Part shown: positions 12,121 to 55,363 of the stretch, piece by piece
Numbering within the stretch: the stretch's first letter is position 1
How the letters are laid out: every line of letters begins with the position of its first letter
NCBI RefSeq assembly: GCF_947503415.1
Contig: NZ_CANNDS010000001.1
Coordinates: forward strand, 1,522,501 to 1,586,500
Origin: an uncultured Tateyamaria sp.
GTDB lineage: Bacteria; Pseudomonadota; Alphaproteobacteria; Rhodobacterales; Rhodobacteraceae
DNA length: 64,000 nucleotides
Direction: 5' to 3'
Program-made: the position numbers and the translations under genes
Notes under the pieces: model-generated
The model's database searches: none
Told to the model about the DNA's origin: nothing
Seen by the model: only the letters and a program-made list of their open reading frames with translations

Positions 12121-12192
12121 GAGCGTCGCCTTGGTGGTTGGTTTGGGCGGTGCATAGCGGGGCAGGCAGTGGTCCACCAGCCCCGACGCTAC

Positions 12193-12555: not shown

Positions 12556-12640
12556 GGAATTTCCTTTGGTCCGTTACAACAGATCACGAGGTGGTGATCG
12601 TGCCGTGATGGCCCAAGTCAGGAATTCCTGCCCTTACAAG

Positions 12641-12666
12641 GCGCGCGAAATATGGCTATCGCGCGC
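12641..12666 (-). terminator. Hairpin just downstream of leuB
   Basis: A perfect 8-bp stem (GCGCGCGA with TCGCGCGC) and a 10-base loop lie 12 nt past the leuB stop. There is no T-run after it, so it may act as an mRNA 3'-end stabiliser or a weak or factor-dependent terminator. Confidence 0.4.
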
Positions 12667-12677
12667 CCGCGTCAGGC

Positions 12678-13781: not shown

Positions 13782-13814
13782 GGGCGAAACTCCTTTGATT
13801 GCTTGGGCTTTCGC

Positions 13815-40065: not shown

Positions 40066-41187
40066 CTATTGCTTGGGGAAATAATCCTCGCAATCGCCGT
40101 CGCGGTACACATCCGCAGTGCAGCAATGCAGCCCGCCGCCAAAGGCGTAGGCATCGCGCAACTCGACCTCGACAACCTCTAGCCCCAGCTTGTCCATCTG
40201 CTCGGCCTGATAGACCTCGGATTTCTCGACACAGACGGTCTTTGGGTCCAGCACCAGAACGTTCATGCTTAGCCACGTGGACGAATAGCACAAAGGCGGC
40301 GGCGAGTTATGCGCAGGCTGGGCGGCATCCACAATCTCCCACCCGTTCGCCTCGAACATGCCGCGCTGATCGTCGGGCAACCGGCGCTGCGGATTGTTCA
40401 GGATCAGACCGGGGCGCAGGGGGGTAAAGGTCGCGTCGATGTGGATGGGATAAGGATCACCGGGGAAGTTGACGGTGTGCACGCGGTGATCGGGGAAGTG
40501 ACGGCGCAGCCACTCGATGCCCTTGAGGTTTGTGGTGAACCCGTGCTGCACCACCAGATCCTTGCCAAAGCGCAGCACGTCGGCGGCGTCAAACAGGGGC
40601 TCTTCTTCGGTCGTGACAAAGAACTTCTTTGCGGCCCATTCCAGCCGCTTGGCGTTGCCGATCTTGTCGCTCAGGTAATCAGGGTGATAATCGGCATCGG
40701 TCAGGCGGGGCTTGGGGGCGGCCTCGTGCCGGAAATTCGGGTCCTCGTCCCAGTATTGCTGCATCAGCGGGCGGTAATTCAGGTACTCGAACCACCGGCA
40801 GCGATAGGACATCGTGGCTTCCAGTATCTCATGGCCCACGGTCAGCAAGACGTCACGGGGTGGCATGCAGCCAAACTGGCTTTCGGTGTGAAAATCCGGC
40901 GTGGTGGCAGGCACCGAATGGTCAATCGATGTCGGGCGATCCACCCGGATGCCGCGCGCCTGCAACTGGTTGGCAAAATTGTCCAGCAGCTCATTGGCCC
41001 GGTCGATGGTTTCTTGTGGACGGCGGCCCCACTGGCCGCGCATGTCGCTGTCCTCGGGCACCTTGGCGTCCAGCGCAGGTTCTTCGGGCGGGATATGGCA
41101 ATCATCTGCCCGGCCCACGATCACGTGGCGCAGCGTGTCCCATTCGTTCCAGCTTTTGACTTCGGTTTTGTCCGGTGACCATGCCAT
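40066..41187 (-). CDS. Glycine amidinotransferase-like enzyme
   Basis: A 373-residue amidinotransferase close to animal AGAT. The triad is visible: Asp in P-L-F-D-A-A-D-V-L-R-F-G, His in P-I-H-I-D-A-T-F and Cys355 in G-G-G-L-H-C-C-T-A-D-V. AGAT moves an amidino group from arginine to glycine, giving guanidinoacetate and ornithine; related bacterial enzymes use other acceptors (for example in toxin or inosamine pathways). ATG 41187 has GGGGAGAG upstream. The facing creatinase suggests a guanidino-compound context, but no guanidinoacetate methyltransferase is in the window. Confidence 0.85.
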   Translation of the reverse strand: MAWSPDKTEVKSWNEWDTLRHVIVGRADDCHIPPEEPALDAKVPEDSDMRGQWGRRPQETIDRANELLDNFANQLQARGIRVDRPTSIDHSVPATTPDFHTESQFGCMPPRDVLLTVGHEILEATMSYRCRWFEYLNYRPLMQQYWDEDPNFRHEAAPKPRLTDADYHPDYLSDKIGNAKRLEWAAKKFFVTTEEEPLFDAADVLRFGKDLVVQHGFTTNLKGIEWLRRHFPDHRVHTVNFPGDPYPIHIDATFTPLRPGLILNNPQRRLPDDQRGMFEANGWEIVDAAQPAHNSPPPLCYSSTWLSMNVLVLDPKTVCVEKSEVYQAEQMDKLGLEVVEVELRDAYAFGGGLHCCTADVYRDGDCEDYFPKQ

Positions 41188-41249: not shown

Positions 41250-41798
41250 TCAGAAATATCCTTCGCGCAGCCACATGAAAACAGCCGCCGCACTCCCGGC
41301 AAAGATCAGCATGGTGTATTGAATGCGTTGCTGGCGGGACATCCATTCGTGAGCGGACAGTATGGACAGGATGGAATACCATGCGGCCAGAAGAGCGGCA
41401 GCGCCCGGCAGAATCAGGACCAGAAACATATCCGGCTGGATCCCGGCAAAAAATACCAAGGCGAGAGCGGGAAAAAACGGGATCTCACCCCAAAAGAACA
41501 CAGGTGTAAAAGCCATAAGGCCTGCCGCAATCACGGCACGGCGCCGGTGTATGGGAAACATCGCGGACCGCACTCTGGTGCGGGCATCATACCCCAACGT
41601 GACAACCATCCCGGCGGCATAACCCGCCATCAGGGACAGTAATCCAGCCGCCGCAGGATGCAGCGTGTCCATCCAATAGGGGTTATGGATCCAGCCGGGC
41701 GCGCGATAGGCAAGATAGGCCAGCCAGAACAGCGCCGCGATGGGCAGGGCCGTCCAGTGAAGGCGCTTGCGCAAGGGGTTGGGCATTGAATTGTCCAT
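41250..41798 (-). CDS. Multi-pass membrane protein, last gene of the pspA-like arm
   Basis: A 182-residue protein with about four hydrophobic segments (roughly 15-31, 48-65, 88-122 and 125-140, plus 160-175). AAAGGTG precedes the ATG. It follows the YiaA/B protein on the same strand with a 56-nt gap and ends the minus-strand arm of the PspA/AAA+ cluster. No family recognised; membership of the cluster is by position only. Confidence 0.68.
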   Translation of the reverse strand: MDNSMPNPLRKRLHWTALPIAALFWLAYLAYRAPGWIHNPYWMDTLHPAAAGLLSLMAGYAAGMVVTLGYDARTRVRSAMFPIHRRRAVIAAGLMAFTPVFFWGEIPFFPALALVFFAGIQPDMFLVLILPGAAALLAAWYSILSILSAHEWMSRQQRIQYTMLIFAGSAAAVFMWLREGYF

Positions 41799-41854
41799 GA
41801 AATCACCTTTCTCAAATCGGGTGGGCCGCCCCTTGCCGGGGCGACCTGTGGGGA

Positions 41855-42142
41855 TCAGGCCGCGTCCTTGATGTCGCCGACATAATCCTCAAGCAGCTTC
41901 TCGTTGCGCGCTTCCTCGATCCGGTTGATGCGGTCGATGCGCTGCTGATTGTCGAAGCGGTATTTGACAAAGTTCACAAGGCTGAGGGTCAGCATCAGAA
42001 TGCCGATGCCCCAGTAACCCTTGGTCGCAAGGGGCACGTCGGTGCTGAGCCACAGGGACAGGCCCAGCATGACATAGGCAATGGCCACGCCAGCGCCGTT
42101 GACGAACATGATAAGCGTATTATCGGGTTGTTGATTGTGCAT
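41855..42142 (-). CDS. YiaA/YiaB-type two-helix membrane protein
   Basis: A 95-residue protein starting M-H-N-Q-Q-P-D-N-T, with two transmembrane helices (about 11-30 and 40-58; the second holds G-Y-W-G-I-G-I-L-M-L-T-L-S-L-V-N-F-V-K-Y) and a charged C-terminal helix. This is the YiaA/B two-helix domain. It lies 28 nt after the PspA-like gene. YiaA/B domains are among the partners I recall near PspA in other bacteria, so a membrane-docking role for PspA is plausible (inference). Confidence 0.82.
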   Translation of the reverse strand: MHNQQPDNTLIMFVNGAGVAIAYVMLGLSLWLSTDVPLATKGYWGIGILMLTLSLVNFVKYRFDNQQRIDRINRIEEARNEKLLEDYVGDIKDAA

Positions 42143-42170
42143 TTTTTCTCTCCGTCGGTGTTGGGTTTGG

Positions 42171-42845
42171 TCAGTCTTTAAGGCGGGCCAGAACATCCCG
42201 ACCCGTCACTTTGGTGGCAGCGCCAAAGCCTGCGTCGGCCATGCGGTCTTCAAGCCCGCTGTGGTCCAGACCGGCATTGATGTCGGCCAGAATTTGCGCC
42301 TGCTCCAGTGGGTCGTCCTTGCCCACCACCCGGTCGATCAGCTCCTGGGCCTCATCGGCAGAAGATGTTCCGGCAAGGGTGCTGTGCAGCTTGGCCTGCA
42401 TGCCCTGTTCGCGGCGCATGGCACGGGCGGTGATGGCCCCTTGCTTGAGGTCGATGACACGGCGGTGGCCCCGTTCGACGGAAGCGCGCAGGCGCGTGGT
42501 CTGGGTGTCCAGCCGGTCGATGGTCGCCTGCCGCAGTGTCGCTTCGTTTTCCATTTCGGCCACGGCATTGGCCGCTTCGGTGGCCATATCCTCGCGCCCG
42601 GCCTCCAGCGCCTCGCGGGCGCGGCCGGTCAATGTGGCGATCCGTGTGCCCAGCAGATCAAGCAGCTTCTGCTCGGACCGGCTGCGCTGGATCAGGCTCG
42701 CCAGCGTAGACTTGGCCGCGCGGACCTGCGCTTCGGTCTCGCGGATCTTCTGGTCGATCAACTCGATGGCATAGACGTCGCGCAGCCGGTCTTCGGCCCG
42801 GGCATCAACGCCTGCAATCAATGTACGTAATGTGGATAGCATCAT
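42171..42845 (-). CDS. PspA/IM30 (ESCRT-III superfamily) protein
   Basis: A 224-residue, almost entirely helical and proline-poor protein. It begins M-L-S-T-L-R-T-L-I-A-G, an amphipathic N-terminal helix like the membrane-binding helix of PspA, followed by long coiled coils (D-Q-K-I-R-E-T-E-A-Q-V-R-A-A-K and A-L-E-A-G-R-E-D-M-A-T-E-A-A). The segment A-L-E-A-G-R-E-D-x-A resembles the PspA signature A-L-x-x-G-R-E-D-L-A. PspA/Vipp1 polymers coat and repair membranes. First gene of the TetR-controlled arm; three operator dyads lie just upstream. There is no pspBC. Confidence 0.87.
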   Translation of the reverse strand: MMLSTLRTLIAGVDARAEDRLRDVYAIELIDQKIRETEAQVRAAKSTLASLIQRSRSEQKLLDLLGTRIATLTGRAREALEAGREDMATEAANAVAEMENEATLRQATIDRLDTQTTRLRASVERGHRRVIDLKQGAITARAMRREQGMQAKLHSTLAGTSSADEAQELIDRVVGKDDPLEQAQILADINAGLDHSGLEDRMADAGFGAATKVTGRDVLARLKD

Positions 42846-42857
42846 GTTTCCCTTTCA

Positions 42858-42929
42858 TGAACATCGTTCACGAAAGGTCAGATAAGGGTAGCATGAACAT
42901 TGTTCAAGAACAACAATGAACAATGTTCA
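42858..42929. promoter_or_regulatory. Three TetR-type operator dyads ahead of the pspA-like gene
   Basis: Three 13-bp dyads share the arms TGAAC/GTTCA: 42858-42870 (centre ATC), 42894-42906 (TGAACA-T-TGTTCA) and 42917-42929 (TGAACA-A-TGTTCA). Sites two and three are exact reverse complements, centred 23 bp apart. Site two overlaps a possible minus-strand -35 (TTGAAC) set 16-17 nt from a TTATCT/TATCTG -10, and site one sits at the ribosome-binding region. Site three touches the end of the TetR gene. The adjacent TetR protein is the obvious ligand (inference). Confidence 0.75.
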
Positions 42930-43538
42930 CATTTTCTTGTTTCCGGTCGCAGAGCGCAGGATCAGGGCGATCATGTTGCGGATCTGGTCGCGCGGGACGG
43001 CGGAAATCCGGTTTTCCAATCCCAACAGCACGATGCCGTGCACAGATGAGAACAGCGCGCGGGTCAACAGATCGACCTCGTTCTGATCCATGTCCGGAAA
43101 GCATTCCTGCACCGGTCCGTTGATGTGGCTGAACAGGCGCGCCAGCTCTTCAAGGTACCAGTCAGGCACATTTATATCCGCGGACATACGCAAGTCGAAC
43201 AGCGCCCGCCACAGCTTGGGATGTGCGCCCGCGTAATCAAGATAGGCATGCGCCATCACGATCAAACGGTCGGTCGGGGGCAGGGTCTCCTTGCCCTCAA
43301 GTGCTGCGGCCACGAAGCGTCCCAGCTTGCGAAACGTGCGCCCGTTCACGGCGATAATGATGTCTTCAAGATCGCCAAAAACGTTGTAAATTGCACCAAC
43401 AGAACACCCAGCCGCCTGCGCCAGCGGGCGTGCCTTGATGGCCTGAATGCCCTCTTGCTCGATCTGTTGCTCGGCAAGGGTGATCAGCCTGTCCCGCAAC
43501 GCGTTGCGGCGTTCTTCTGCTTTGCTGGCCATGCCCAT
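42927..43538 (-). CDS. TetR-family regulator of the PspA/AAA+ cluster
   Basis: A 203-residue protein with a TetR helix-turn-helix at about residues 12-60 (A-R-P-L-A-Q-A-A-G-C-S-V-G-A-I-Y-N-V-F-G) and a C-terminal ligand-binding domain with W-R-A-L-F-D-L-R-M and V-H-G-I-V-L-L-G. It lies upstream of the pspA-like gene in the same direction and is divergent from the plus-strand arm. Three TGAACA dyads directly follow its stop. It probably represses the pspA-like gene and perhaps itself, releasing on an envelope-related signal; the signal is unknown. Confidence 0.88.
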   Translation of the reverse strand: MGMASKAEERRNALRDRLITLAEQQIEQEGIQAIKARPLAQAAGCSVGAIYNVFGDLEDIIIAVNGRTFRKLGRFVAAALEGKETLPPTDRLIVMAHAYLDYAGAHPKLWRALFDLRMSADINVPDWYLEELARLFSHINGPVQECFPDMDQNEVDLLTRALFSSVHGIVLLGLENRISAVPRDQIRNMIALILRSATGNKKM

Positions 43539-43718
43539 CCCCGTCTTGAACCACGTTCACGGCATAACGGGCTGGGCAGGGCAGGAAAACCCCGGTCACA
43601 TCCTTTTATTCCCGCAGTGGTTTTGCAACACTTCGCGGGAATTCCGGGGATGCGCTGATGTAAATCCTCGTCACATTGCCTATATGCGTACCAACGCATT
43701 GAAACAAGGGAGTATTTA

Positions 43719-44795
43719 ATGGCGAATTTCGCATCTCAGGTCGAAGAATCTCAGGCGCAAGTGGCCGAGGCACAAGATAAAATCGCCGAATTGACCAGCC
43801 GGATCGAAATGGCGCGGGCTAAGATGAAGTCGGGCGACGACATTTCCATGGATATTGAAAACGCCACGCTGGAAGACGTGCACGCCCACACGGATGTGAT
43901 GAACGCCAACATCGCTGAGCTGATCATGGGTCTGGACGACGTGACCGCCGCCTTTTCAAAGGATTTTGACGAGATGCGGTCCAAAACGGGCTGGGAAAGC
44001 TTTGTCGGTGTCTTTGCCAAGGCCAAGTCGGAATCCATGCGGCAGGAGCGCGTGCGCAGCGCCTCCATCGACGACAAGCTGCAGGACCTGATTTCCAAGT
44101 CCGACGTGATCGTCCAATTGCTGCAAGGTCAGCTGACCATGCTGGAAGAGCAGAAAACCAAGGTCGAAACCAACTTGACCGAAACGCTGGACGAACGTGA
44201 ATTCACCGTGCAGGAGCTGTCGGCCCTGCAAGCCGACATTCAGGCGATGGATCCGCAGATCATCACGCTGGAAAACAAGATCGCATCCGAGACCGACGCC
44301 GCCGCGCGGACCGCGTTGGAAACCGAGCTGGCCGAGATGAACACGAAATACAACGAGATGGTGCAAGAAGAGCAGGTCAAGCTGGCGAAATCCCAGACCC
44401 TTGAGCGGTACATCGAAAAGGGAAAGACGTGGGTCGACTCCCTGCAAAATCAGGCTGCGACCCAGATGGTGCTGATCAACAAGTTACAAACAGACACCAA
44501 GCAGCGTGTGGTGCTGTATGATGCGCTGACCAAGTCTCTGAAAACAGCACAACAACAGGACGTCGCCCACCGCATCAACGAGATAGGCGTGCAGACAGAT
44601 CAGGAAGCCCAAACGGCGATGGCCGGGATCGGGGCCGCCACCAACGCCCGCATGGCCGACATGCTGGAAGCGCACGAAGATCACATGGTCTTTGCCCGCG
44701 ACGTGCTGGAGCAGAAGGCGAAGGCGGATGAACGCTTTGCCCGCCGCTTTGCCCAGATCGTCGAGAAGCACGACAGCAATGCGTATGGTGGCTAG
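43719..44795 (+). CDS. Long coiled-coil protein heading the plus-strand arm
   Basis: A 358-residue cytosolic protein with no cysteine and one proline (residue 179), rich in Ala, Glu, Gln and Lys, so nearly all helix. Coiled coils run from about 5-38, 115-175 and 180-240, and again in the C-terminal third (T-A-Q-Q-Q-D-V-A-H-R). The proline between two long helices suggests a hairpin, as in PspA and other ESCRT-III-type subunits; a distant likeness to TelA-type proteins is also conceivable. AAGGGAG precedes the ATG. No domain is recognised with certainty. Confidence 0.75.
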   Translation: MANFASQVEESQAQVAEAQDKIAELTSRIEMARAKMKSGDDISMDIENATLEDVHAHTDVMNANIAELIMGLDDVTAAFSKDFDEMRSKTGWESFVGVFAKAKSESMRQERVRSASIDDKLQDLISKSDVIVQLLQGQLTMLEEQKTKVETNLTETLDEREFTVQELSALQADIQAMDPQIITLENKIASETDAAARTALETELAEMNTKYNEMVQEEQVKLAKSQTLERYIEKGKTWVDSLQNQAATQMVLINKLQTDTKQRVVLYDALTKSLKTAQQQDVAHRINEIGVQTDQEAQTAMAGIGAATNARMADMLEAHEDHMVFARDVLEQKAKADERFARRFAQIVEKHDSNAYGG

Positions 44796-44797
44796 TC

Positions 44798-44947
44798 ATG
44801 AATTTAGGTTTTGCTGCCATCGCGGTGTCAATCATCTGCCTGCTGGCAGCACTCGCCTTCGGCGCCCCCACATGGGTCAACGGAGTGGGGTTCTTTTCCG
44901 GGATTGTCGGGCTCTATCTGCTGTCCAAGGGGCGCAAGAGCGGGTGA
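44798..44947 (+). CDS. 49-residue two-helix membrane protein
   Basis: A short frame starting two bases after the coiled-coil gene's stop: M-N-L-G-F-A-A-I-A-V-S-I-I-C-L-L, then a turn (G-A-P-T-W-V-N-G) and a second hydrophobic segment (V-G-F-F-S-G-I-V-G-L-Y-L-L) ending in a basic tail (S-K-G-R-K-S-G). Two transmembrane hairpin helices with a positive C-terminus make a real gene likely. It is easily missed because of its size. No family recognised. Confidence 0.65.
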   Translation: MNLGFAAIAVSIICLLAALAFGAPTWVNGVGFFSGIVGLYLLSKGRKSG

Positions 44948-45006
44948 GGACTCTGCAGGAGTTGTGGGCGCGAGATCAAATCCAATGCCCGCCCGGTGGC
45001 ACCTCC

Positions 45007-45089
45007 GGGCAGCCCCCGACCGCCCCCCTGGGCGGGGGCTATACCCCCACCCGCGGCCGGGGGCTGCCCTTGTTTATATTTGAAAACGG
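45007..45089 (+). repeat. Large GC-rich inverted-repeat element, copy 3 of the dispersed family
   Basis: Perfect 12-base outer arms, GGGCAGCCCCCG (45007-45018) and CGGGGGCTGCCC (45058-45069), enclose a second hairpin (CCGCCC with GGGCGG). A T-rich tail, TTGTTTATATTTGAAAACG, follows. It sits inside the plus-strand arm, between the 49-residue membrane protein and the next gene, and could attenuate or process the transcript. Confidence 0.6.
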
Positions 45090-45098
45090 TTGAAGCTG

Positions 45099-45302
45099 AT
45101 GCAGTGGAAGATTGGTCTGATCGTTGTTGGCGCTCTTTGTTTGATCCTTGTACATCAATTTCACGGGGCTTGGTGGGCTTACGCAATTGGGTCTCTGCCG
45201 ATCCTCATCGGGTTGGCGTGGATCGGCGCATACGATGCCGCTGCTGACCGATCCGGACGTCAAAAGTGGGGCGATGGTTCCGGCCCCGGTGCGAGCACAT
45301 GA
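45099..45302 (+). CDS. 67-residue two-helix membrane protein
   Basis: A short protein: M-Q-W-K-I-G-L-I-V-V-G-A-L-C-L-I-L-V then W-W-A-Y-A-I-G-S-L-P-I-L-I-G-L-A-W-I-G-A-Y, ending in a polar Gly/Ser/Asp tail. ATG 45099 is chosen; an in-frame TTG nine bases earlier is possible. Its stop overlaps the start of the next gene (ATGA), so it belongs to the same operon. No family recognised. Confidence 0.7.
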   Translation: MQWKIGLIVVGALCLILVHQFHGAWWAYAIGSLPILIGLAWIGAYDAAADRSGRQKWGDGSGPGAST

Positions 45303-46414
45303 TCAAATCCGAAACCTCCGGCCTCACCGACCTCTTTGCATCGCGCCGCTATTTCAAGAAGTTCGAGACCATCACCGGGCATCTTGGCCGTGTCGCGGGC
45401 GTGATGGAGGCCGAGGGTGATCTGACCCGGGACGAGGTCAAGATCCTTACCCGCTATATCGCTGAGCTCACCTTTACCTTCCGCGCGCTGGGTCAAAAAT
45501 ACCTGCTGGTGGGCCGCGATACCGGGCGTTTCTTTGGCAGTCTCGCAATCGACACACGCTATAGCGGGTTTCCCGCCGCCGAAGAATTGCTCACCATGGC
45601 GTCGGACGCGCTGCAGGCGGGACGTCATCTTGACCGGATCGAACCGGCGGACGCGCTGAAAAAGCAGATGGTCGAGGTCATCATCGGCGACCGGCAGGTG
45701 CCGACGAAACTGCAATTCGCCCTGTCCCAGCGGCTTTATTACGAGGATCTTGTGCGCGGTCAGCTTTTCTGGCCCCGCAACGATCCCCAGATCGTTTGGA
45801 CCGGCAATCTGTCTGACGACCGCCGCAGCTTCCGCATCCATTGGGCCGTGTACGATACAGAACTGAACCTACCCGTCATCTACATGATGGAGGTCGAAGA
45901 CTCAGGCCGCACCGCCCTGCCCAAAGACCCCCGCCGCTGGCCGGAAGCCCAAGCGCACCTGATGGCGCAATCGCTTGGCAAGCTGAAGCTGGTAACCATC
46001 GCCAAGGGTTTTGACGAGGATTTCGACGACCTGCACCCCAAACGCCTGCGCCGCTTCTATGCCGGGCCGATGTATTCGTCGGCCTTCACCGATCAATCGG
46101 GGCCCATTCTGAATGTCCTCAAGGCGGCGCGTGCACCCGCAGGCCAGGACTGGGCGCTGGTGTGGACCGAGGAAGACCTGCATTCGGAACGCGTGATCGA
46201 GGAACGTTCGGGCTGGTTTTCGTCCGTGGAACGTGAGGTCTTTGCCCTCGATCCGTTCTCGGGTCGTGGCGCGGATCTGGGAGCCACACGGATGGAACGC
46301 AGCATCGTGTTGCCGCAGCGCGCCTTTCAGGCCCTTGAAGAGATGAACCCGCCCGGTTTTGGATCGGTCCGCAAGTTTGTGGTCAGCCCGTCGGGGCGGG
46401 TGCTCAGATACTGA
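45299..46414 (+). CDS. Unknown 371-residue protein of the PspA/AAA+ cluster
   Basis: A soluble protein without signal or membrane segments. The N-terminal 110 residues are helical (S-R-R-Y-F-K-K-F-E-T-I-T-G-H-L-G, then L-T-R-Y-I-A-E-L). The middle has beta-like segments (F-R-I-H-W-A-V-Y-D, P-V-I-Y-M-M-E-V-E), and the end reads F-V-V-S-P-S-G-R-V-L-R-Y. ATGA coupling to the small membrane protein and a place just ahead of the AAA+ ATPase suggest an adaptor or partner. I do not recognise a family. Confidence 0.75.
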   Translation: MIKSETSGLTDLFASRRYFKKFETITGHLGRVAGVMEAEGDLTRDEVKILTRYIAELTFTFRALGQKYLLVGRDTGRFFGSLAIDTRYSGFPAAEELLTMASDALQAGRHLDRIEPADALKKQMVEVIIGDRQVPTKLQFALSQRLYYEDLVRGQLFWPRNDPQIVWTGNLSDDRRSFRIHWAVYDTELNLPVIYMMEVEDSGRTALPKDPRRWPEAQAHLMAQSLGKLKLVTIAKGFDEDFDDLHPKRLRRFYAGPMYSSAFTDQSGPILNVLKAARAPAGQDWALVWTEEDLHSERVIEERSGWFSSVEREVFALDPFSGRGADLGATRMERSIVLPQRAFQALEEMNPPGFGSVRKFVVSPSGRVLRY

Positions 46415-46436
46415 AGGGTGGGACGCATGGCGAACC

Positions 46437-46471
46437 GGCCCTCCGGGGGGAGTTTATTTTGCAAGATGAAG
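46437..46471 (+). repeat. Dispersed intergenic element, copy 4
   Basis: CCCTCCGGGGGGAG followed by TTTATTTTGCAAGATGAAG. It is almost identical to the minus-strand copy at 61187-61221 (which has TTTATTTGGCAAGATGAAG). It lies between the 371-residue protein gene and the AAA+ ATPase gene. Confidence 0.65.
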
Positions 46472-46485
46472 CAGGGGATCAGTGA

Positions 46486-48423
46486 ATGAGCCAAACGTCG
46501 GATCAGATGGAACTGCGCGAGGCCGAGATCATTGCGCACTACCCCATGGCGCTGTCCATGTTGCAGGGTTTTGATCATGCGCCGCGCATCGGGACGGGCA
46601 AGGCGGCACCTCAGCAAGAGCGCTCAAGCGGCGTTGGCACGCGGCGCCGGTTTCGGTCGACCACGCCGGGGCTAACCACGCGGCGCATTGTGCCCACGGG
46701 TGCTGTGCAACTGATGGCCACCATCGAAGGGGCCGATGACGACGATGCGCTGATGTCGCCCGTGCAGGCCACGGTGCTGAACGCCCTGCGCCGCGCCATT
46801 TCAATCGCGCTGGCGGTGGCCGAGAACTATGCGTCGGTCTCGGGTCTCGGCGATCTCAAACGCGCCAACCTTGAAGGGGCGTTGCCCGCCGCGCGCAAGA
46901 CTGAGTTTGCCGAATTGCTGGCCGCCGAGGCACTCATCACCCTCTACGTCTTTGGCAATGCGACAGCGTATTTGCTGTCGGCGCACCAGATCGAAATCAC
47001 GGCAGAGGTGGGTGAGGTCGAGGAGGTGCTGACCGACAATGGCCAGACCGCCCTGCACGGCATTCTGTGGGAACTGGATCAGGACATCGCGACCCACGCC
47101 CCGGACGACACCCACCTTGTTGCGACCATCACGGCCTTTGCGGAGGCATGTATGGAAAAGGTCGCCCTGCGCGCTCAGAACGCCCCGCGTCTTGCCCCCT
47201 TCACCGGGGCGTCTTGGCATGTGGAGGCCGACGACTTCACAGTGCAGGGCTTTACCCCGGCGACAAAGGCCAAGTCGCAAACCCTGACCATGACCTTCAA
47301 GAAACCGCACGAGGTTGTGGGCAATCACATCGCCAAATATCAGGCCATGAAGCTGGCCAAGATGCTGATGGCCTATGATTTTGACCGGCGGCTGAACCCC
47401 TTTGCCGAGTTGGGCGGCTTCATCTTCACCTTTATGGGGGACGGTGCGCCGGGGACGGGCAAGACCACGCTGATCCAGATGATGGCGGGGCTGATCAACG
47501 ACTATTGCGGGGTCGCGGGCTATGCGTTTCGTTATCAGAACCTGAGCACGGACAATATCGACAGCTATCAGGGCAAATCGGGCCAGAATGCCAAGGCGTT
47601 CATCAACAACGTGCTTGATCCGGGTGTCATAGGCTTTGGCACCATCGATGATATCGACCAGTTGGCGGGCAAACGGGGCGACCGGCAGTCGTCAGCGGGG
47701 CAGTTGGAAATCACCGCCGTGTTGATGGAGAGCTTTGCAGGCGCCAATACTGTTGTGCGGGGCAATTGCACCTTCGGCATGTTCTCGAACTACCCCGAGA
47801 ACGTGGACGACGCCCTGCGCCAGCGGGCTGGGGCGCGGTTTCTGGTGGATGGGCCGCAAACGCGCGAGGATTACATCGACATTCTGGCGCTATTGATGGG
47901 CAAGAACCACGATATCCCGATGGGTGCGCATGAGTTGTTCTCGGCCCAGGAGATCAAGAAGGCGGTCGCCGCCAGCTTTGACAGCCACTCCCGCCCGCAT
48001 GAACCGGGGCTGATGGAGGTGTTTGACCGAGTGCATTCGGACATCGGGGAGATGGACACGATTGCGAAGCTGGGCACGTATCTGAAGGCGATCCAGAAGG
48101 CGGATGAGCGGTTCACGGGCCGCGCGATCAAGAACATCACGGATGCGGTGAAGGTGCGGGCGATGGACTTTGAGTTGCCCGATGAATGGATGGAGAACCC
48201 GGAGCTGTTCCTGTTCAAGGGCTATGACGAGAAGAAAGCGATGATCGAAGAGCTGCGTGTGCCGATCACGGTCGACATGGTGGTGCAGGAGATCAACCGC
48301 TACGCGGACAGCGAGTTTCGCTATGCGGACAAGTCGGATGAGGTCGCGATCGAGGCGATGGTGCGGGAGTTTGGGCGGCAGGAAGAGGCGAAGAAGCGGT
48401 TTTTGGGGGACAACAGGGAATGA
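46486..48423 (+). CDS. AAA+ ATPase of the PspA-linked cluster
   Basis: A 645-residue protein with one AAA+ module after a 300-residue N-terminal region of unknown fold. Walker A is G-A-P-G-T-G-K-T at 320-327, Walker B is G-F-G-T-I-D-D-I-D at 383-391 (two acidic residues), and the second region of homology is S-N-Y-P-E-N-V-D-D-A-L-R-Q-R-A with sensor-1 Asn435 and an arginine-finger candidate. This is the classic-AAA layout seen in Vps4, katanin and FtsH-type remodelers, without a protease domain. Next to a PspA-type polymer gene it may disassemble or remodel that polymer (inference). Confidence 0.88.
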   Translation: MSQTSDQMELREAEIIAHYPMALSMLQGFDHAPRIGTGKAAPQQERSSGVGTRRRFRSTTPGLTTRRIVPTGAVQLMATIEGADDDDALMSPVQATVLNALRRAISIALAVAENYASVSGLGDLKRANLEGALPAARKTEFAELLAAEALITLYVFGNATAYLLSAHQIEITAEVGEVEEVLTDNGQTALHGILWELDQDIATHAPDDTHLVATITAFAEACMEKVALRAQNAPRLAPFTGASWHVEADDFTVQGFTPATKAKSQTLTMTFKKPHEVVGNHIAKYQAMKLAKMLMAYDFDRRLNPFAELGGFIFTFMGDGAPGTGKTTLIQMMAGLINDYCGVAGYAFRYQNLSTDNIDSYQGKSGQNAKAFINNVLDPGVIGFGTIDDIDQLAGKRGDRQSSAGQLEITAVLMESFAGANTVVRGNCTFGMFSNYPENVDDALRQRAGARFLVDGPQTREDYIDILALLMGKNHDIPMGAHELFSAQEIKKAVAASFDSHSRPHEPGLMEVFDRVHSDIGEMDTIAKLGTYLKAIQKADERFTGRAIKNITDAVKVRAMDFELPDEWMENPELFLFKGYDEKKAMIEELRVPITVDMVVQEINRYADSEFRYADKSDEVAIEAMVREFGRQEEAKKRFLGDNRE

Positions 48424-48658
48424 TGGTTCACCAAATTCAGAATGTGGTTAGCGGGGACGTGCCCGACCTCGGGTGGGCGCACGCAGCATCAGCGCAATGT
48501 GGGGCGCTGGCATCACGTAATTCGGCCATTCGAAGCGTGACATCAGCAATGCACCCTCCCGGGGGGGAGATCGGGCGCGGCCCGGCGATGCCGGGCACCT
48601 GCGGTTCACATGATGTGCCAGTTTCAGGCCGTTCAGGCATTGTGTGCGAGGCTTGAAA
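48424..48658. other. 235-nt stretch without a convincing gene inside the cluster
   Basis: Short frames exist on both strands (a plus frame starts in an ATGATG at the ATPase stop, ending 48656), but their composition is proline- and arginine-rich and frame-shadow-like. A GC-rich block (CCCTCCCGGGGGGGAG) near 48552 and a GGCCCGGCGATGCCGGGC hairpin near 48580 resemble the dispersed intergenic elements. The gap splits the arm into two operon-like halves. Confidence 0.5.
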
Positions 48659-49027
48659 ATGACCCCCGACACCATCACACTTTGGAACACTGGCCTGCCG
48701 CTTGGCATCGCAGGTGCGTTGGGTTGGTGCGTGCCGCGTTTCATCGCCCCGTCCGACACGCGATCACACATAAAGGTGGCCATTGCGATGGCCGCCTCAG
48801 CCGTTGTGCTGATCCTTGTCTCTGCAGGTTTGTTCGCTGCCCTTCAACCCGGCAAGTTCGCACGCACTGCTCAAGCTGGCGGTCTTTTTCTGGCCATCGA
48901 AATCGCTATCCGTGGCTCACTTCTTTTTGCAGTCGCATGGGGCCCGATCATGCTTATGTGCTGGCTCAATATGGCCCAGCGTGTCGAGGCATGGCGGGGC
49001 AAAGACCTTGCAGAAAAGGAAAGCTGA
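48659..49027 (+). CDS. Three-helix membrane protein of the cluster
   Basis: A 122-residue protein with hydrophobic segments at about 13-31, 39-63 and 74-103 and a charged tail (A-Q-R-V-E-A-W-R-G-K-D-L-A-E-K-E-S). The last segment, P-I-M-L-M-C-W-L-N, is strongly hydrophobic. The stop overlaps the next start (TGATG). ATG 48659 is chosen over an in-frame GTG at 48644. No family recognised. Confidence 0.7.
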   Translation: MTPDTITLWNTGLPLGIAGALGWCVPRFIAPSDTRSHIKVAIAMAASAVVLILVSAGLFAALQPGKFARTAQAGGLFLAIEIAIRGSLLFAVAWGPIMLMCWLNMAQRVEAWRGKDLAEKES

Positions 49028-49317
49028 TGCTGCTGATCCTCATAACCGTCGCCGCCGTGATACTCGGCAGCCTCCTTCCGCTCCGGCGCGCGCTCTTGGG
49101 CTTTCTCGCCGCTGTAGCGCTCCTGTTCCTCGTCCAAGCGGCCATCCACACCGCGATGGGCTTCGAAGGCACGTCGCTGTCGGAGACCATGCTGCTCTTC
49201 AACAACTCATGGGGTGCCTATCTGGGCTACAACGTCCAGATTACCTTCCGCGCCTTTGCGCTGCCGCTGCTGGCGCTCGCAACCCCGCTCATCTTCCGCA
49301 TGGGGCGTGCGCCATGA
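49027..49317 (+). CDS. Small membrane protein of the cluster
   Basis: A 96-residue protein with three hydrophobic segments (M-L-L-I-L-I-T-V-A-A-V-I-L-G-S-L-L, A-L-L-G-F-L-A-A-V-A-L-L-F-L-V and F-A-L-P-L-L-A-L-A-T-P-L-I-F). It overlaps its upstream neighbour by one base and its downstream neighbour by four (ATGA), so it is firmly within the operon. No family recognised. Confidence 0.7.
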   Translation: MLLILITVAAVILGSLLPLRRALLGFLAAVALLFLVQAAIHTAMGFEGTSLSETMLLFNNSWGAYLGYNVQITFRAFALPLLALATPLIFRMGRAP

Positions 49318-50645
49318 TCCGCCTCATCCAGCGTGGTCTGATGTTTGGCAATCTCTTTCACGTGGCCTCGCCCGCGCTGGTCGAACGTTACAACCGCGCG
49401 CTTGAACACCTGACGGGCAAGCGCACGGCGCTCACCGATTTCTACATCGACATCTCTGGCTATTCGCCCGAGGTGGGCAATGAGCTGGGCGATCCGCTTT
49501 ACCTGAACCACAACGGGGTCAATCGGCAGTTCATTCTGCTCAGCACCGAACAGCGCAAATGTCCGTTGCTGGATGCAAGTTTTTCCACCTCGCAGGGCAT
49601 TCTGAAACGGTTCATCGCGGAAAATGAGGCAGCGCTGTTTGCCCTGACCGCCCGCGATGCGGTGGCGGGGGAGTTGGTGAACTCGGTCTACGATATCTCG
49701 CATCCTGCGCGGCTCTTTGACCTGCGCGCCATCACGGTCGAGGCGGACACGACCCGGGGCACGGTGCGTAATGCGGCCACGCTGGCGTGCAAGGTGGACA
49801 CGTTTCTGAGCGAGGACGACGCGTGGTTCGATGATGTTCTGATCAGTGAAATGATCCAGCTTGCGGGGCAAACCGGCGACGTGACGCGCAACCCGGTCAA
49901 GCTGAAGCCGCTGACGGTGGAGAAGGGCAATTTCTGGACGTCCCATTTCGGTGGGCTTTACATCTTCCAGACGCTCGACCATCCGGCGACCATCGCGGCC
50001 GGGGACAAGCCGCAGGACGTGCCCACCAAATACACCTTTGATCTGACCGAACGAAACCGGATTGCCAAGTTCCTGGAGTTCAACGATCTGGTGGAGCCGG
50101 TGGTCAAGGCGCGCGGCATCGACGGGGCGGCGATCCTGCGTCAGAAAATGGATTTCATCCTTGTGTCAGCCGTGACCGAAGCGGGTGTGGACCTTGCAGG
50201 GACCACACGCCGCGACATGCGGATGCTGGCGCGCCAACACGCGCACCTGCTGCCAGATGAATTCCGCGGACTGGCCGATCTGGTCAACTGGGCCGAACAT
50301 GGCGGCGCTTGGCCGCGCATCAGCTCGGAACATCCGGCCTATTTCTATACGTTGCGGGCTGCCGACACGCCGGATGCGGACCTTGTGAACATGTTGCTGG
50401 CCGAGCTTTGCCCACGTGACGCGCGCCAGCTGTTCATCTGCCACAAGCAGGCGTTCTATGCCGCCTATGCCACATGGTCCGAGGCGAAGAAGGAATATGT
50501 CGCGCAGTATCTCGAAGCCGAGTACAAGGCCGACAAGGTGGGGGCGCGGGCAGCACTGTTCGGGCACGATGCCCCCATGGAGCCCGATGTCAAACCTCGC
50601 GATATGATCGCACGCGTGGGACCTTGGGGCGCAGTGAGGAGGTAA
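49314..50645 (+). CDS. Unknown 443-residue protein of the cluster
   Basis: A soluble protein starting M-I-R-L-I-Q-R-G-L-M-F-G-N-L-F-H. It has no signal peptide or transmembrane segment. Mixed alpha/beta composition, with landmarks R-Y-N-R-A-L-E-H-L-T-G-K-R-T near 25, S-H-F-G-G-L-Y-I-F-Q-T-L near 215 and a helical C-terminal third. I have a vague memory of a roseobacter-restricted uncharacterised family with this N-terminus but cannot name it safely. ATGA coupling ties it to the membrane proteins upstream. Confidence 0.75.
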   Translation: MIRLIQRGLMFGNLFHVASPALVERYNRALEHLTGKRTALTDFYIDISGYSPEVGNELGDPLYLNHNGVNRQFILLSTEQRKCPLLDASFSTSQGILKRFIAENEAALFALTARDAVAGELVNSVYDISHPARLFDLRAITVEADTTRGTVRNAATLACKVDTFLSEDDAWFDDVLISEMIQLAGQTGDVTRNPVKLKPLTVEKGNFWTSHFGGLYIFQTLDHPATIAAGDKPQDVPTKYTFDLTERNRIAKFLEFNDLVEPVVKARGIDGAAILRQKMDFILVSAVTEAGVDLAGTTRRDMRMLARQHAHLLPDEFRGLADLVNWAEHGGAWPRISSEHPAYFYTLRAADTPDADLVNMLLAELCPRDARQLFICHKQAFYAAYATWSEAKKEYVAQYLEAEYKADKVGARAALFGHDAPMEPDVKPRDMIARVGPWGAVRR

Positions 50646-50649
50646 GGAT

Positions 50650-50913
50650 ATGGCCATCGCCAGACTGTTTCTGATCGCCTTCGTGGTGCTGACGGTGATC
50701 TATATCTCGCTGTCATTCTACTCGCGCGCGCGTGCCCGTGACCGGCTGGAGGCTGAATGGGATCAAGGCGACAAACCCGGCCCGCGCGAGGCTTATGTCA
50801 AACACGGGCTGACGGATTACGACGGATCGCTCAGGCGCAAACTGATCCTCGGGGTGTATATCGTCCCCATGGCGCTTGTGTGCCTGATCATCTACCTAGT
50901 GAACTTCGCCTGA
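50650..50913 (+). CDS. Two-helix membrane protein of the cluster
   Basis: An 87-residue protein with an N-terminal transmembrane helix (L-F-L-I-A-F-V-V-L-T-V-I-Y-I), a charged loop of about 40 residues (R-A-R-A-R-D-R-L-E-A-E-W-D) and a C-terminal helix (L-I-L-G-V-Y-I-V-P-M-A-L-V-C-L-I-I-Y). It starts four bases after the 443-residue protein gene and is followed 11 nt later by the DUF1523 gene. No named family. Confidence 0.75.
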   Translation: MAIARLFLIAFVVLTVIYISLSFYSRARARDRLEAEWDQGDKPGPREAYVKHGLTDYDGSLRRKLILGVYIVPMALVCLIIYLVNFA

Positions 50914-50924
50914 AGGGGACCCAC

Positions 50925-51572
50925 ATGCGTTACATCGGCTGGACACTTCTGATTGCCTTCTGGGTCGTGGCGGGTGCCTTCCTGCACTACTCGCTGCCGC
51001 AGCGCGACATCGTGCGCATCGTGCGCGTATTCGAGGAGCGCCAGGACCTGAACGACTGGACACGTATCTTCTGGTCGCGCCCCGACGAACAATCCGACAC
51101 GCTGATCAACCGCGATGTGCAGTTCCTCCAGACCGTGCGCGCGAATGGCAATCCCATGGTTTACCGGAACGAGGACACAGGCTGGAGCTGGCCGCCGTAT
51201 TTCAAGTTCGACACCTCGAACCTGTTCACCGAAGCCGCCGATGCAGTTTCGACCCGGGCGGCCCCCGAGTGGTACGTGATCACCCATTATGGCTGGCGGA
51301 ACGAATTTCTGACGATCTTTCCCAATGCGATTTCGCTCCGGCCCATTGAGGGGCCGGACGCATCCAAAGGCATTCCGTGGGTCAACATCATCGTACTGAC
51401 ACTCATTGCGGCGATCTTCTATGCGATCTGGGTCCGCTGGCGCAGATTCCGCAGGGCAAGAATCGATCCGCGTCTGGAAGAGATCCAAGACAGTTGGGAC
51501 GCTGCAGGTGAAGCAGTGTCGCAAAGGCGCGGGCGCATCCGGCGCTGGCTTGATACGTGGAAATCCAAATAG
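50925..51572 (+). CDS. DUF1523-family membrane protein
   Basis: A 215-residue protein with an N-terminal helix (W-T-L-L-I-A-F-W-V-V-A-G-A-F-L-H-Y), a soluble domain with H-Y-S-L-P-Q-R-D-I-V-R-I, R-N-E-D-T-G-W-S-W-P-P-Y-F-K-F-D and H-Y-G-W-R-N-E-F-L-T-I-F-P-N-A, then a second helix (V-N-I-I-V-L-T-L-I-A-A-I-F-Y-A-I-W) and a basic tail. These blocks fit DUF1523, a family without known function that I associate with alphaproteobacteria. AAGGGG precedes the ATG. It is the last gene of the plus-strand arm. Confidence 0.87.
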   Translation: MRYIGWTLLIAFWVVAGAFLHYSLPQRDIVRIVRVFEERQDLNDWTRIFWSRPDEQSDTLINRDVQFLQTVRANGNPMVYRNEDTGWSWPPYFKFDTSNLFTEAADAVSTRAAPEWYVITHYGWRNEFLTIFPNAISLRPIEGPDASKGIPWVNIIVLTLIAAIFYAIWVRWRRFRRARIDPRLEEIQDSWDAAGEAVSQRRGRIRRWLDTWKSK

Positions 51573-52826: not shown

Positions 52827-54404
52827 TCAGTCGGCATAGAGGTAATCGACGGTCGCGATCTCGCGCGCCTTCTCGGTGGGCACCGTCAGAAAGCGGGAAA
52901 GGGCATTGGCGTTGTCTTCGATGTCCGCCTCCTCCCGCATCCGATCCAGATGTTCGAAATCAGCGTCCCGAATGCGATCGGATTCAAAGATCATGTCGTT
53001 GCGGATTGTGGGCAGCAGGCGTTCCAGCGTTTCCGGGCTGGTCTGCTCCCCGGCCAAGCCCACGCGCATGGCGTGACCGATCAAGTAGTCATCCGAAAAC
53101 GAACATTGAATTTCCAGCATTCGAGTGATCGACCGATCTCCCGCGAAGTCCTGCAACAGATCCAGATTGCCGGGATCCATGCACACGATCAGCTTGTCGG
53201 TCTCGTAATAGTCGAAAAGCATCCGCATTAGGGCACGGCGGTGGCGCGTGCGCTTTTCCAACGTGTTCTGGATACCGCCCAGATCGGGCAGGGGCGTGTG
53301 TTCTTCGTTGAACAAGTATTCGATGGCGGGCACGTTGGTCATCACGCGGATACGTTCAAGCAACCGCTTGGCCACGTGCCACTTCTTGCAAATGATGATC
53401 AACAGCTCTCGATTTCGGCCGAGCGTGCTCTCGGTCTCCCAGAATCGCGTGGCGAAACGGCGGCCAATCCGCCCGCGCCCCGTCAGAAACTTGAACAGGC
53501 TGGCGCCCTCGTTCGATATCTGAAACGGCACGTTTTCGGCGGCATACAGCAGACCCAAACGGCGTTTCAAATCGCGGGCTTCTGGACTGATCTTGCGGGC
53601 GAACAGGAAATCCTGGCTCAACAACAGATCATAGTGATCGTCATAGAAGGTCACCGGCATCCCATAGTCGGTAAACATCAGGAAGGTCAGCGTGCGCGTG
53701 CGAATCTCATCCTCTGGAACGACATGGCGCACGATGGTTTGAAAGAATGTCTCGTCCGGAATCCAGGTGGTGCGAAAAAAGCGCATCACGTCGCGGCGCT
53801 GGCGGGTGAAATCCAGCACCCACTCAATTGTACGACGGCGCAAACACCACCATTGGCTGCCGATCTGTACCTGAATGTCAGCCGGTATCTCGCGCTTGAA
53901 GCCAAAGCGTTGCTGCAGGTGGTAGCTCGCATAGAAACGACGCTTTTGCGTGCGTTCATTGAAGAAGTGGCGGTAGATCAACCGCTCTTCCTTCATGCCT
54001 GTCTTGATCCAGTCGCTCTCGAAATAGTCCAGGCTCTCGATAAAATCGGCGTCATTGTCGTCTAGAAACTGGTGGGTGTACTCAGCTGATTTGATGGCCA
54101 TGCAATCGCCTGAAAGCATGTAGAAATGTGTGGCGCGCGGGAACGCTTCAACCGCACTTTCCACGGCGTGCAGAGTCGCCTGTACAAGGCTCCACTCACC
54201 CCATCCACAGCGGATACGTTTATGGGCAAACACCACATTCGAATTGTCCTTGAGCGCTGCACGTATCTCCGCAAAGGCGGCGCTGCTGGCGCGCGCATCG
54301 AAGTGAATGGACATGTAGTCGCCCGCGGCCGTCAGCCGTTCCGCCTGCTTGATGATGGCATCCGGGTCCTTGTGACACAGCAGGATGTAGGCGATTCTTG
54401 CCAT
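52827..54404 (-). CDS. Core-2/I-branching-type glycosyltransferase with C-terminal extension
   Basis: A 525-residue protein. Residues 1 to about 260 match the GT14-like core-2/I-branching N-acetylglucosaminyltransferase family: I-A-Y-I-L-L-C-H-K-D-P, I-H-F-D-A-R-A, F-Y-M-L-S-G-D-C-M-A-I-K-S and G-S-Q-W-W-C-L. The rest is an extension, which I associate with roseobacter proteins annotated with a DUF5928-type domain (recalled, not verified). It is divergent from the sulfotransferase gene, so both probably act on a surface glycan. No signal or membrane segment; cytoplasmic. Confidence 0.85.
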   Translation of the reverse strand: MARIAYILLCHKDPDAIIKQAERLTAAGDYMSIHFDARASSAAFAEIRAALKDNSNVVFAHKRIRCGWGEWSLVQATLHAVESAVEAFPRATHFYMLSGDCMAIKSAEYTHQFLDDNDADFIESLDYFESDWIKTGMKEERLIYRHFFNERTQKRRFYASYHLQQRFGFKREIPADIQVQIGSQWWCLRRRTIEWVLDFTRQRRDVMRFFRTTWIPDETFFQTIVRHVVPEDEIRTRTLTFLMFTDYGMPVTFYDDHYDLLLSQDFLFARKISPEARDLKRRLGLLYAAENVPFQISNEGASLFKFLTGRGRIGRRFATRFWETESTLGRNRELLIIICKKWHVAKRLLERIRVMTNVPAIEYLFNEEHTPLPDLGGIQNTLEKRTRHRRALMRMLFDYYETDKLIVCMDPGNLDLLQDFAGDRSITRMLEIQCSFSDDYLIGHAMRVGLAGEQTSPETLERLLPTIRNDMIFESDRIRDADFEHLDRMREEADIEDNANALSRFLTVPTEKAREIATVDYLYAD

Positions 54405-54544: not shown

Positions 54545-55363
54545 ATGGGATTTCCCGGCACCTGGATGACGGAAAGTGAAAGCGTGGTGTACCGCGTGGT
54601 GCCGAAATGCGCCTGCTCGACCATCGGGCAGATCATGTTCTATTCCGACCACGGCGAATTCTTCGACGGCGACATCCATGACGCGCAAGGTGGCATGCAC
54701 AAATGGGCGCTTGAGGCGAGCCAGCCGATCATCACCGACAACGTGAAAACTCACGGCTCGTACTCCTTCACCTGCGTGCGCAACCCCTACACCCGCATCC
54801 TGTCATCCTTCTTTGACAAGATCTGCGGCATCCAGCGCAATGGCAAACGCTACCGCGGCAACCTCGTGCCGCTGCTCATCCAGAAATACGGGATCGAGGT
54901 GGGCGGCGACGATGGCAAGCAGGAATTCGACCAGATCAAGTCGTTCCGCCGATTTCTTCTGTTTGCCCGCGACACCATTCGCTGGCGCCGCCCGATGGAG
55001 CCTGACATCCACTGGTCCGCTATGTCCGGCCACGTCAGCACGTTCATCGTGAACGGAGGCCGCTATGACAAGATCATCTGGACCGAGAAATTCAATGAGG
55101 GCATGGAGCAGGTGATGCAAGCGGTTGAAACCCCGCACGCCATCGACATTGCAGGCATCCCGCGCTTCAACGAAAGCGAAGGGCACGGTCCGAAACGCGC
55201 ACATCCGGTCGAGGACTACTTCGACGATCTGTCGATGCATCTGGTCTATGAAATCTACAAGCGCGATTTCGAAGTGTTCAAATATGACTTCGAAGACCCT
55301 TCAAACAAGATGCCCATTGGTGAGATCGACCTTGACGAAGTGCACAAGAAACTTGGCGACTGA
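54545..55363 (+). CDS. Sulfotransferase family protein
   Basis: A 272-residue protein with the PAPS 5'-phosphosulfate loop V-P-K-C-A-C-S-T-I near residue 19-27 and the 3'-phosphate block C-V-R-N-P-Y-T-R-I-L-S-S-F-F near 79, as in family-2 carbohydrate sulfotransferases. It would transfer sulfate to a sugar or lipid. AAAGGGCGAG precedes the ATG. The 140-nt divergent gap to the glycosyltransferase contains an AT-rich stretch (about 54450-54490) likely to hold both promoters. Acceptor unknown. Confidence 0.87.
   Translation: MGFPGTWMTESESVVYRVVPKCACSTIGQIMFYSDHGEFFDGDIHDAQGGMHKWALEASQPIITDNVKTHGSYSFTCVRNPYTRILSSFFDKICGIQRNGKRYRGNLVPLLIQKYGIEVGGDDGKQEFDQIKSFRRFLLFARDTIRWRRPMEPDIHWSAMSGHVSTFIVNGGRYDKIIWTEKFNEGMEQVMQAVETPHAIDIAGIPRFNESEGHGPKRAHPVEDYFDDLSMHLVYEIYKRDFEVFKYDFEDPSNKMPIGEIDLDEVHKKLGD

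Follow-up and report, generated by a model that had tools for sequence, protein, structure and literature searches.

A conserved four-gene AAA ATPase cassette beside a separable PspA module in an uncultured Tateyamaria sp.

Introduction

PspA is a member of the ESCRT-III superfamily. In the stretch of DNA analysed here, 64,000 nucleotides of an uncultured Tateyamaria sp. (NZ_CANNDS010000001.1, positions 1,522,501 to 1,586,500; hereafter the window), a pspA gene lies close to the gene of a classical AAA ATPase. The earlier note on this DNA had interpreted positions 41,250 to 51,572 as two divergent arms from one control region, together encoding an ESCRT-like membrane-remodelling system. In the present study we describe two gene sets: a tetR-pspA-yiaAB module (the PspA module), and an AAA cassette with a core of four genes, which encode a 358-aa all-helical coiled-coil protein (CC), a 371-aa soluble protein of an unnamed family, the ATPase and a DUF6638 protein.

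Several described systems resemble parts of this locus. With ESCRT-III/Vps4 the cassette shares a classical AAA ATPase that has a pore-loop aromatic, and its helical partner may be membrane-linked. It differs in that Pfam gives no MIT match and PspA is mostly absent or encoded elsewhere; the regular coupling of an AAA gene to an ESCRT-III superfamily gene is not seen (PspA missing from 36/50 genomes with the ATPase, adjacency in 3/155 loci). A bacterial AAA gene near a pspA gene appears in the sections of Ravi et al. 2024 (PMC11237479) consulted here, where the protein carries a second, inactive AAA domain at its N-terminus; the ATPase of the window has one AAA domain, and its neighbourhood with PspA is rare. 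According to the same sections, the way in which PspA homologues lacking an AAA partner control their assembly is unknown, and the consulted part of PMC11746142 suggests chaperones or PspF as regulators of PspA assembly. The classical remodellers TRIP13/Pch2, Mpa and p97 differ from the present ATPase in the N-terminal region, and the partner proposed here is a long coiled-coil protein.

The PspA module resembles the Psp stress systems in having a PspA member by the Pfam cut-off together with a small membrane protein and a regulator of its own; the regulator differs in being TetR-like with its own sites. The classical Psp operon combines PspF, PspB and PspC with pspA. The earlier note held these three to be absent, and they are not among the Pfam matches of the 14 proteins that the two arms encode; the genome beyond was searched only for PF04012. 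By term search, the words TetR and YiaA are missing from the main text, as consulted, of two surveys of Psp systems (PMC11237479, PMC9239133). Among the cassette members, DUF6638 (PF20343), DUF1523 (PF07509) and DUF2333 (PF10095) are named Pfam families. The literature searched contained no paper naming DUF6638 or PF20343 and no description of the AAA cassette; DUF1523 or DUF2333 are named in some papers.

Results

The AAA cassette has a conserved four-gene core

The genes for CC (43719..44795, plus strand), the 371-aa protein (45299..46414, plus), the 645-aa ATPase (46486..48423, plus; PF00004, E 3.7e-11) and the 443-aa DUF6638 protein (49314..50645, plus; PF20343, E 7.7e-228) form a conserved four-gene core, which is our main finding. 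A single sample of 120 home-family genomes, each from a different genus, was searched for the ATPase, CC, DUF6638 and PspA, which were found in 50, 51, 54 and 24 genomes, respectively. The ATPase co-occurred with CC in 50/50 genomes (p = 3e-33) and with DUF6638 in 50/50 (p = 2e-29). The order CC-371-AAA-DUF6638-P87-DUF1523 was collinear in 20/20 AAA loci of relatives. Across 104 AAA loci (the 80 best of 529, 20 from relatives and 4 from plasmids), the ATPase was present in 104, the 371-aa protein in 103, CC in 102 and DUF6638 in 101. Sinorhizobium, Shinella, Rhizobium and Vibrio plasmid records have the same core order, at an ATPase identity of 42-56%.

The cassette is single-copy in each genome, except where genes are split at contig ends. 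Four family genomes carry DUF6638 without the ATPase: contigs end there in two (G233, G296), a third (G256) has fragments, and the last (G284, 77% complete) has ∼3.3 kb without the ATPase before DUF6638. The locus in G256 (L304, contig C173) is a decaying cassette, in which CC and DUF6638 are fragments, P87 and DUF1523 are still matched, and the ATPase is gone. DUF6638 was found in 26 of 398 genomes of the phylum, of which 14 belong to the home family, 11 lie elsewhere in the class and 1 lies outside the class. A class-wide search for the ATPase gave 3/190 genomes, all of the home family; this draw was spread over many families and missed a rhizobial family in which 88 of 151 genomes carry the ATPase. 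In rhizobia the cassette often lies between the same neighbours, thymidine kinase (18 loci) and formate-tetrahydrofolate (THF) ligase (20 loci), as clusters read from annotation. On a Vibrio vulnificus plasmid (L119, NZ_CP015514.1) the four-gene core is followed by mfd, without DUF1523, and preceded by genes for 90- and 279-aa proteins that have no Pfam match at E 0.001.

The membrane partners vary by lineage. In Rhodobacteraceae these are P87 (50650..50913, plus), an 87-aa protein with two spans by hydropathy found in 70/104 AAA loci, and DUF1523 (50925..51572, plus; PF07509, E 4.8e-67), which has a membrane segment near either end and is found in 73/104; rhizobia have a DUF2333 protein downstream in place of these two. 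Small membrane proteins occupy the gaps of the core in many Rhodobacteraceae loci and change fast. In the window, the gap between CC and the 371-aa gene (44798-45302) holds the 49-aa single-span s49 (44798..44947, plus; matches in L171 and L199) and the 67-aa s67 (45099..45302, plus; matches in L187, L189 and L200). The gap between the ATPase and DUF6638 genes (48659-49317) holds the 122-aa P122 (48659..49027, plus; matches in L171, L195 and L199) and P96 (49027..49317, plus), an open frame for a 96-aa hydrophobic protein. The CC-371 gap is at least 250 bases in 39/99 loci, and a sense-strand frame with a membrane segment was found in 31 of these 39, against 0 in antisense; for the AAA-DUF6638 gaps the figures were 38/70 and 5. 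The rhizobial and Vibrio loci listed in this gap survey had no small membrane frames.

Sequence comparisons gave few leads to function. No convincing Pfam match was obtained for s49, s67, P96 or P87, and no convincing Pfam family for the 358- and 371-aa proteins or for a 182-aa protein at the edge of the region, to which NCBIfam and PHROGs add nothing firm. For the 371-aa protein the best Pfam E-value among 36 members was 0.0068, in one member only, and profile comparison revealed no similarity to DUF6638. CC, the 371-aa protein and DUF6638 had no credible sequence match to solved structures.

The ATPase carries remodeller motifs

Judged by its motifs, the ATPase belongs to the classical AAA ATPases and has the residues expected of a remodeller that threads proteins. 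Walker A spans residues 318-327, the pore loop is Y361-Q-G, Walker B is I387-D-D-I-D391, and N435 and R445/R447 are the sensor asparagine and the arginine-finger candidates. All of these, including the aromatic-X-Gly pattern of the pore loop, are invariant in 39/39 members, and PF00004 is matched in 39/39. Sequence matches are to fidgetin-like proteins, to Vps4 (weakly) and to TRIP13, and the fold matches of the model are to PCH-2/TRIP13, Mpa and p97, with a mean pLDDT of 63.8 in the AAA core. The N-terminal region is predicted to be a helical bundle. No MIT domain was matched by Pfam in the 39 members, although the N-terminal region was not searched alone. Two other candidates were rejected: a second AAA domain (one Pfam AAA stretch; hhalign probability 0.1 between the N- and C-terminal parts), and a similarity of the N-terminal part to PspA or CC (probabilities 0.1-0.2).

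CC has lost its most conserved segment where the ATPase is missing

The most conserved stretch of CC is residues 261-288, and residues 270-293 were used as the motif window for counts. In the structural model (mean pLDDT 71.6) a long hairpin (117-190/194-275) is predicted, followed by another long helix; the segment falls where the hairpin ends and the last helix begins, at low confidence (about 54-66).

A survey of 151 rhizobial genomes of one family, the family label being inferred from related named loci, found CC in 95, and all 88 genomes with the ATPase are among these. Seven genomes have CC without the ATPase. One of them (G779, 68% complete) was set aside, also because another genome of its genus (G677) has the ATPase. 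The six others, 99-100% complete and from three genera, and one R. leguminosarum plasmid give seven AAA-less loci (L121, L285-L290). In all seven CC adjoins DUF2333, and the ATPase, the 371-aa protein and DUF6638 are missing from the stretch read; in the six genomes the ATPase was sought genome-wide, the other two only in the stretch.

In the AAA-less CC the most conserved segment is deleted or unrecognisable. Scored against a consensus built from the AAA-bearing set itself, residues 270-293 matched at 0-17% in the seven AAA-less CC, compared to 82% on average and no less than 58% in the 140 others, Vibrio included; 2 of 150 CC sequences, shorter than 240 aa, were dropped, and some genomes occur twice among the 140. 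Outside the segment the match was 17-32%, compared to at least 38% in the others. This divergence is out of proportion to that of the neighbouring DUF2333: among locus pairs with 70-80% identity in DUF2333, the identity of CC outside residues 261-293 is 86% if both loci carry the ATPase (41 pairs), but 27% (maximum 32%) in the 10 pairs that straddle the AAA divide. dN/dS of CC was 0.15-0.32 in four AAA-less pairs and 0.016, 0.022 and 0.141 in three AAA-bearing pairs, with one CC pair and one DUF2333 pair giving no usable value. By this measure the AAA-less CC looks to be still under purifying selection.

In the DUF2333 tree the AAA-less loci form two groups separated by the AAA-bearing L291 and L296 (supports 0.84 to 0.94), which implies that loss took place at least twice, or once with a later regain. 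In the CC tree the branches of the AAA-less loci are very long, and their order is left unsettled. The R. leguminosarum and S. meliloti loci have matching flanks (thymidine kinase and formate-THF ligase), so the AAA module was probably lost in place. The loss of the segment together with the strong divergence of CC in these loci leads us to infer an action of the AAA module on CC by way of the segment. The simplest reading of these sequences is that contact with the AAA module through the segment holds CC nearly fixed.

The PspA module carries its own probable operator sites

The PspA module lies on the minus strand: yiaAB (41855..42145) encodes a small YiaA/B-like membrane protein, pspA (42171..42845) the 224-aa PspA/IM30 family protein (PF04012, E 4.1e-16), and tetR (42927..43538) a TetR-family regulator. 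A PF04012 search of the whole genome gave one match, this 224-aa protein. The palindrome TGAACNNNGTTCA was found at four sites in the window, with 0.05 expected by shuffling. Three of these probable TetR operators lie between tetR and pspA (42858..42929; starts 42858, 42894 and 42917), and a pattern search placed the fourth just upstream of tetR (43547..43559). Genome-wide there are ten copies, of which the window's four form the only cluster, and two copies of a control pattern. At least three sites are present in 20/20 PspA loci of relatives (L099-L118) and, of the 24 family genomes that match PspA, in all but one (23); the exception (G283) has two, and its PspA match is interrupted by stops. 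Outside the window, 155 AAA loci were scanned, and two or more sites were present just in the three that adjoin PspA. In the 20 PspA loci, PspA is accompanied by TetR in 20/20 and by YiaAB in 18/20. The palindromes keep a conserved spacing, and the tetR-pspA-yiaAB module occurs across the family.

The sites go with the PspA module, and the idea of two divergent arms driven from one control region is not borne out. This pattern is probably the expected picture of an autoregulated tetR-pspA module. The TetR protein would repress its own gene and pspA through the four TGAACNNNGTTCA sites, and some ligand or stress would relieve this repression.

The PspA module and the AAA cassette are separable

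The PspA module and the AAA cassette are two separable modules that stand back to back in the window. In the 120 family genomes the ATPase and PspA occur together in 14 (Fisher p = 0.10, odds ratio 2.3), and with strong PspA matches only, the ATPase is present in 10/19 (p = 0.32). No PspA match was found in 36 of the 50 ATPase genomes. Among the 14 genomes with both, the two were seen close together only in the window's genome; they are 36 kb apart in one (G268), at least 149 kb apart on one contig in four, and on different contigs in eight, which include two assemblies of at least 350 contigs. By tblastn, neither gene set contained the other's genes in 20 AAA and 20 PspA loci of relatives. 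The nearest relatives found, three Tateyamaria loci with 82-87% nucleotide identity over most shared cassette stretches, share both flanks and carry the cassette at the same site without PspA. In one of them (L200) the M24 peptidase (end 4419) runs directly to CC (start 4654); in the other two (L220, L242) ∼1.2 kb lies between, and the insert of L242 is an open frame read by eye as a histidine kinase.

In the 104 AAA loci, PspA adjoins the cassette in two, both Tateyamaria with the window's arrangement. A further 41 loci read for the adjacency question, that of G549 among them, and 10 rhizobial ones brought the set to 155, of which at least 11 do not extend far enough to reveal a PspA arm next to the cassette. 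A different arrangement was found in another family (L305, G549:C11:600500-620000), through two stray operator sites in L139: at 6602-14535, a diverged tetR-pspA-yiaAB set (tetR 7721-8272, pspA 6932-7582, yiaAB 6602-6817; 31-33% identity to the window's set) stands beside the DUF1523 end of the cassette. Because of this case the full independence of the modules is partly given up here, and the odds for readings that join PspA and the ATPase are raised.

The earlier note had treated the two arms as linked. As a rule they are not, since adjacency is rare, though not unique to the window; the arms are apart in most relatives, not in all. As to the ESCRT-like system, PspA as a fixed part of it finds no support, and the idea of an ATPase remodelling a helical, membrane-linked protein survives, with CC as the better candidate partner.

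Other features of the region

The observations of the earlier note are confirmed in part. Its open reading frames are present, the 224-aa protein is PspA-like (PspA_IM30, 59.7 bits against a cut-off of 33.9), TetR_N and TetR_C_33 both exceed their cut-offs, the ATPase has one AAA domain and no protease domain by Pfam, and the 358-aa protein has a single proline, P179. The YiaA/B-like protein has a membrane segment by hydropathy, but its PF05360 match (20.6 bits) is under the cut-off of 26.6. Hydropathy segments support the small membrane proteins for the 182-aa and YiaAB-like proteins, s49, s67, P122, P87 and DUF1523, and were not scored in P96. Of the two soluble proteins that the earlier note called unknown, that of 371 aa is still unnamed and that of 443 aa belongs to DUF6638; both DUF6638 and DUF1523 are named Pfam families of unknown function.

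The 182-aa multi-pass membrane protein (41250..41798, minus; three hydropathy segments) had a tblastn match in 0/40 loci of relatives and no tie to either module elsewhere; no Pfam, NCBIfam or PHROG match was obtained. An arginine deiminase/amidinotransferase-like gene at 40066-41187 (minus) occurs here and is missing between the shared flanks of the compared Tateyamaria loci. At 52827-54404 (minus) a branch-type glycosyltransferase with DUF5928 stands beside a sulfotransferase (54545-55363, plus), perhaps a surface-glycan pair.

Discussion

We favour, with moderate confidence, the explanation that the region holds a separable PspA module with TetR self-control and an AAA cassette whose dedicated client is CC. 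Its mechanism builds on the conserved core, which in most genomes occurs without PspA, on the AAA motifs, and on the segment loss and divergence of CC. CC would form a long helical hairpin at the membrane, held by its DUF1523 or DUF2333 partner. The ATPase would grip CC through the SLKTAQQQDVAHRINEIG segment, close to where the hairpin meets the last helix, with the 371-aa and DUF6638 proteins helping as putative adaptors, and would unfold or rearrange CC in cycles of ATP hydrolysis.

A number of observations weigh against this explanation. In Walker B (residues 387-391) an aspartate replaces the usual catalytic glutamate in 39/39 members, so ATP turnover may be slow or absent, and the low pLDDT of the AAA core marks it as poorly predicted. 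CC persists without the ATPase and must then have some AAA-independent function, and since the ATPase, the 371-aa protein and DUF6638 were lost together, the missing segment could serve one of the latter two. The losses are perhaps only two events, the segment consensus derives from the AAA-bearing loci themselves, and the dN/dS ranges of AAA-less and AAA-bearing CC nearly touch. The AAA-less CC could also be an old, fast-evolving paralogue, although the matching flanks argue otherwise. Finally, PspA adjoins the cassette in 3/155 loci, in two independent arrangements, while random placement predicts ∼0.1 adjacencies. This rough figure takes placement as uniform, the share of AAA genomes with PspA as 28% and genome size as 4.2 Mb, and the case in G549 was noticed afterwards, through its operator sites. 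Some functional tie between the modules is therefore possible, and the PspA module may sometimes serve the AAA cassette.

The alternatives differ in the role they give to the ATPase, to PspA and to CC. It is somewhat improbable that, instead of unfolding CC, the AAA module serves as a scaffold or chaperone and builds a CC-371-DUF6638 complex on the membrane while turning over little ATP. The Walker B aspartate would suit such a role, there are two further soluble core proteins, and co-loss fits a complex as well as a client, but Y361, the sensor asparagine and the arginine-finger candidates are invariant in all 39 members, as in active translocating AAA proteins. A looser tie, with the PspA module as an optional accessory that has a membrane-stress role in common with the cassette and sometimes stands beside it, PspA not being a client, is similarly on the unlikely side: the two independent adjacencies and the co-occurrence odds ratio speak for it, set against a co-occurrence p-value of 0.10, the late discovery of L305, and an expected number that hangs on uniform placement and the 28% share of PspA. 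That the PspA polymer and the ATPase make up one bacterial ESCRT-III/Vps4-like system is quite unlikely. It would account for the adjacency here, in two Tateyamaria loci and in G549, where PspA stands at the opposite end of the cassette, and for the weak match of the ATPase to Vps4; yet the association is not significant, most ATPase genomes have no PspA, adjacency is rare, the nearest relatives have no PspA at the same site, and the operators go with PspA.

Other identities for CC change the nature of the cassette as a whole. CC could be a diverged ESCRT-III/PspA-like polymer, making the cassette an ESCRT-III/Vps4 analogue built on CC. The predicted long antiparallel hairpin with another long helix would fit, as would the cognate classical AAA and membrane partners and the position of the most conserved segment after the hairpin. 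Profile comparison of CC with PspA gave no similarity (hhalign probability 2.8), and a fold comparison (VIA-align) was uninformative, giving syntaxins, STATs, alpha-pore toxins, 14-3-3 and other generic helical proteins, with no PspA, Vipp1 or ESCRT-III among the 50 matches listed. We regard this identity as unlikely. Equally doubtful is its fuller form, a PspA-independent ESCRT-III/Vps4-like machine in which CC polymerises on DUF1523/DUF2333 anchors and the ATPase, recruited by the 371-aa and DUF6638 proteins, extracts CC via SLKTAQQQDVAH, with the PspA module an optional add-on in few lineages. An anti-phage defence system, made up of the ATPase, the coiled-coil protein, the two unknown proteins and the membrane proteins, is very unlikely. 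Its patchy presence (50/120 genomes) would agree with defence, as would weak PADLOC matches: for the ATPase, TRIP13 (E 1.2e-5) and IetA (E 0.0018); for CC, LmuB (E 6e-4) and the model of a restriction enzyme (E 0.0012). Against this, the 371-aa protein, DUF6638 and DUF1523 have no PADLOC match at E 0.01, the rhizobial neighbours are often the same, and there is one copy per genome apart from contig-end splits. Least probable is that CC belongs to the TelA family (PF05816) and the cassette is a variant of the toxic-anion/Ter stress system. Size and all-helical make-up are alike. The six Pfam families that match the window's CC at E up to 10 do not include TelA, and neither do the 25 families (of 41) listed for 13 CC members; the hhalign probability against 14 TelA proteins was 1.8, and the genome carries a separate, clear TelA (G000:C3:315495-316484).

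To return to the explanation that we favour, the region points to an AAA machine, conserved in alphaproteobacteria and vibrios, of which we found no description, with a predicted client and a predicted recognition segment of ∼24 residues; the tempting link between PspA and the ATPase is at best loose. If the PspA-independent polymer machine described above were true instead, the cassette would be a bacterial ATP-driven membrane-remodelling machine with no need for PspA. With the predicted client and segment, and with natural lineages that appear to have lost the machine and changed the client, the idea is open to direct testing by mutation in common laboratory strains.

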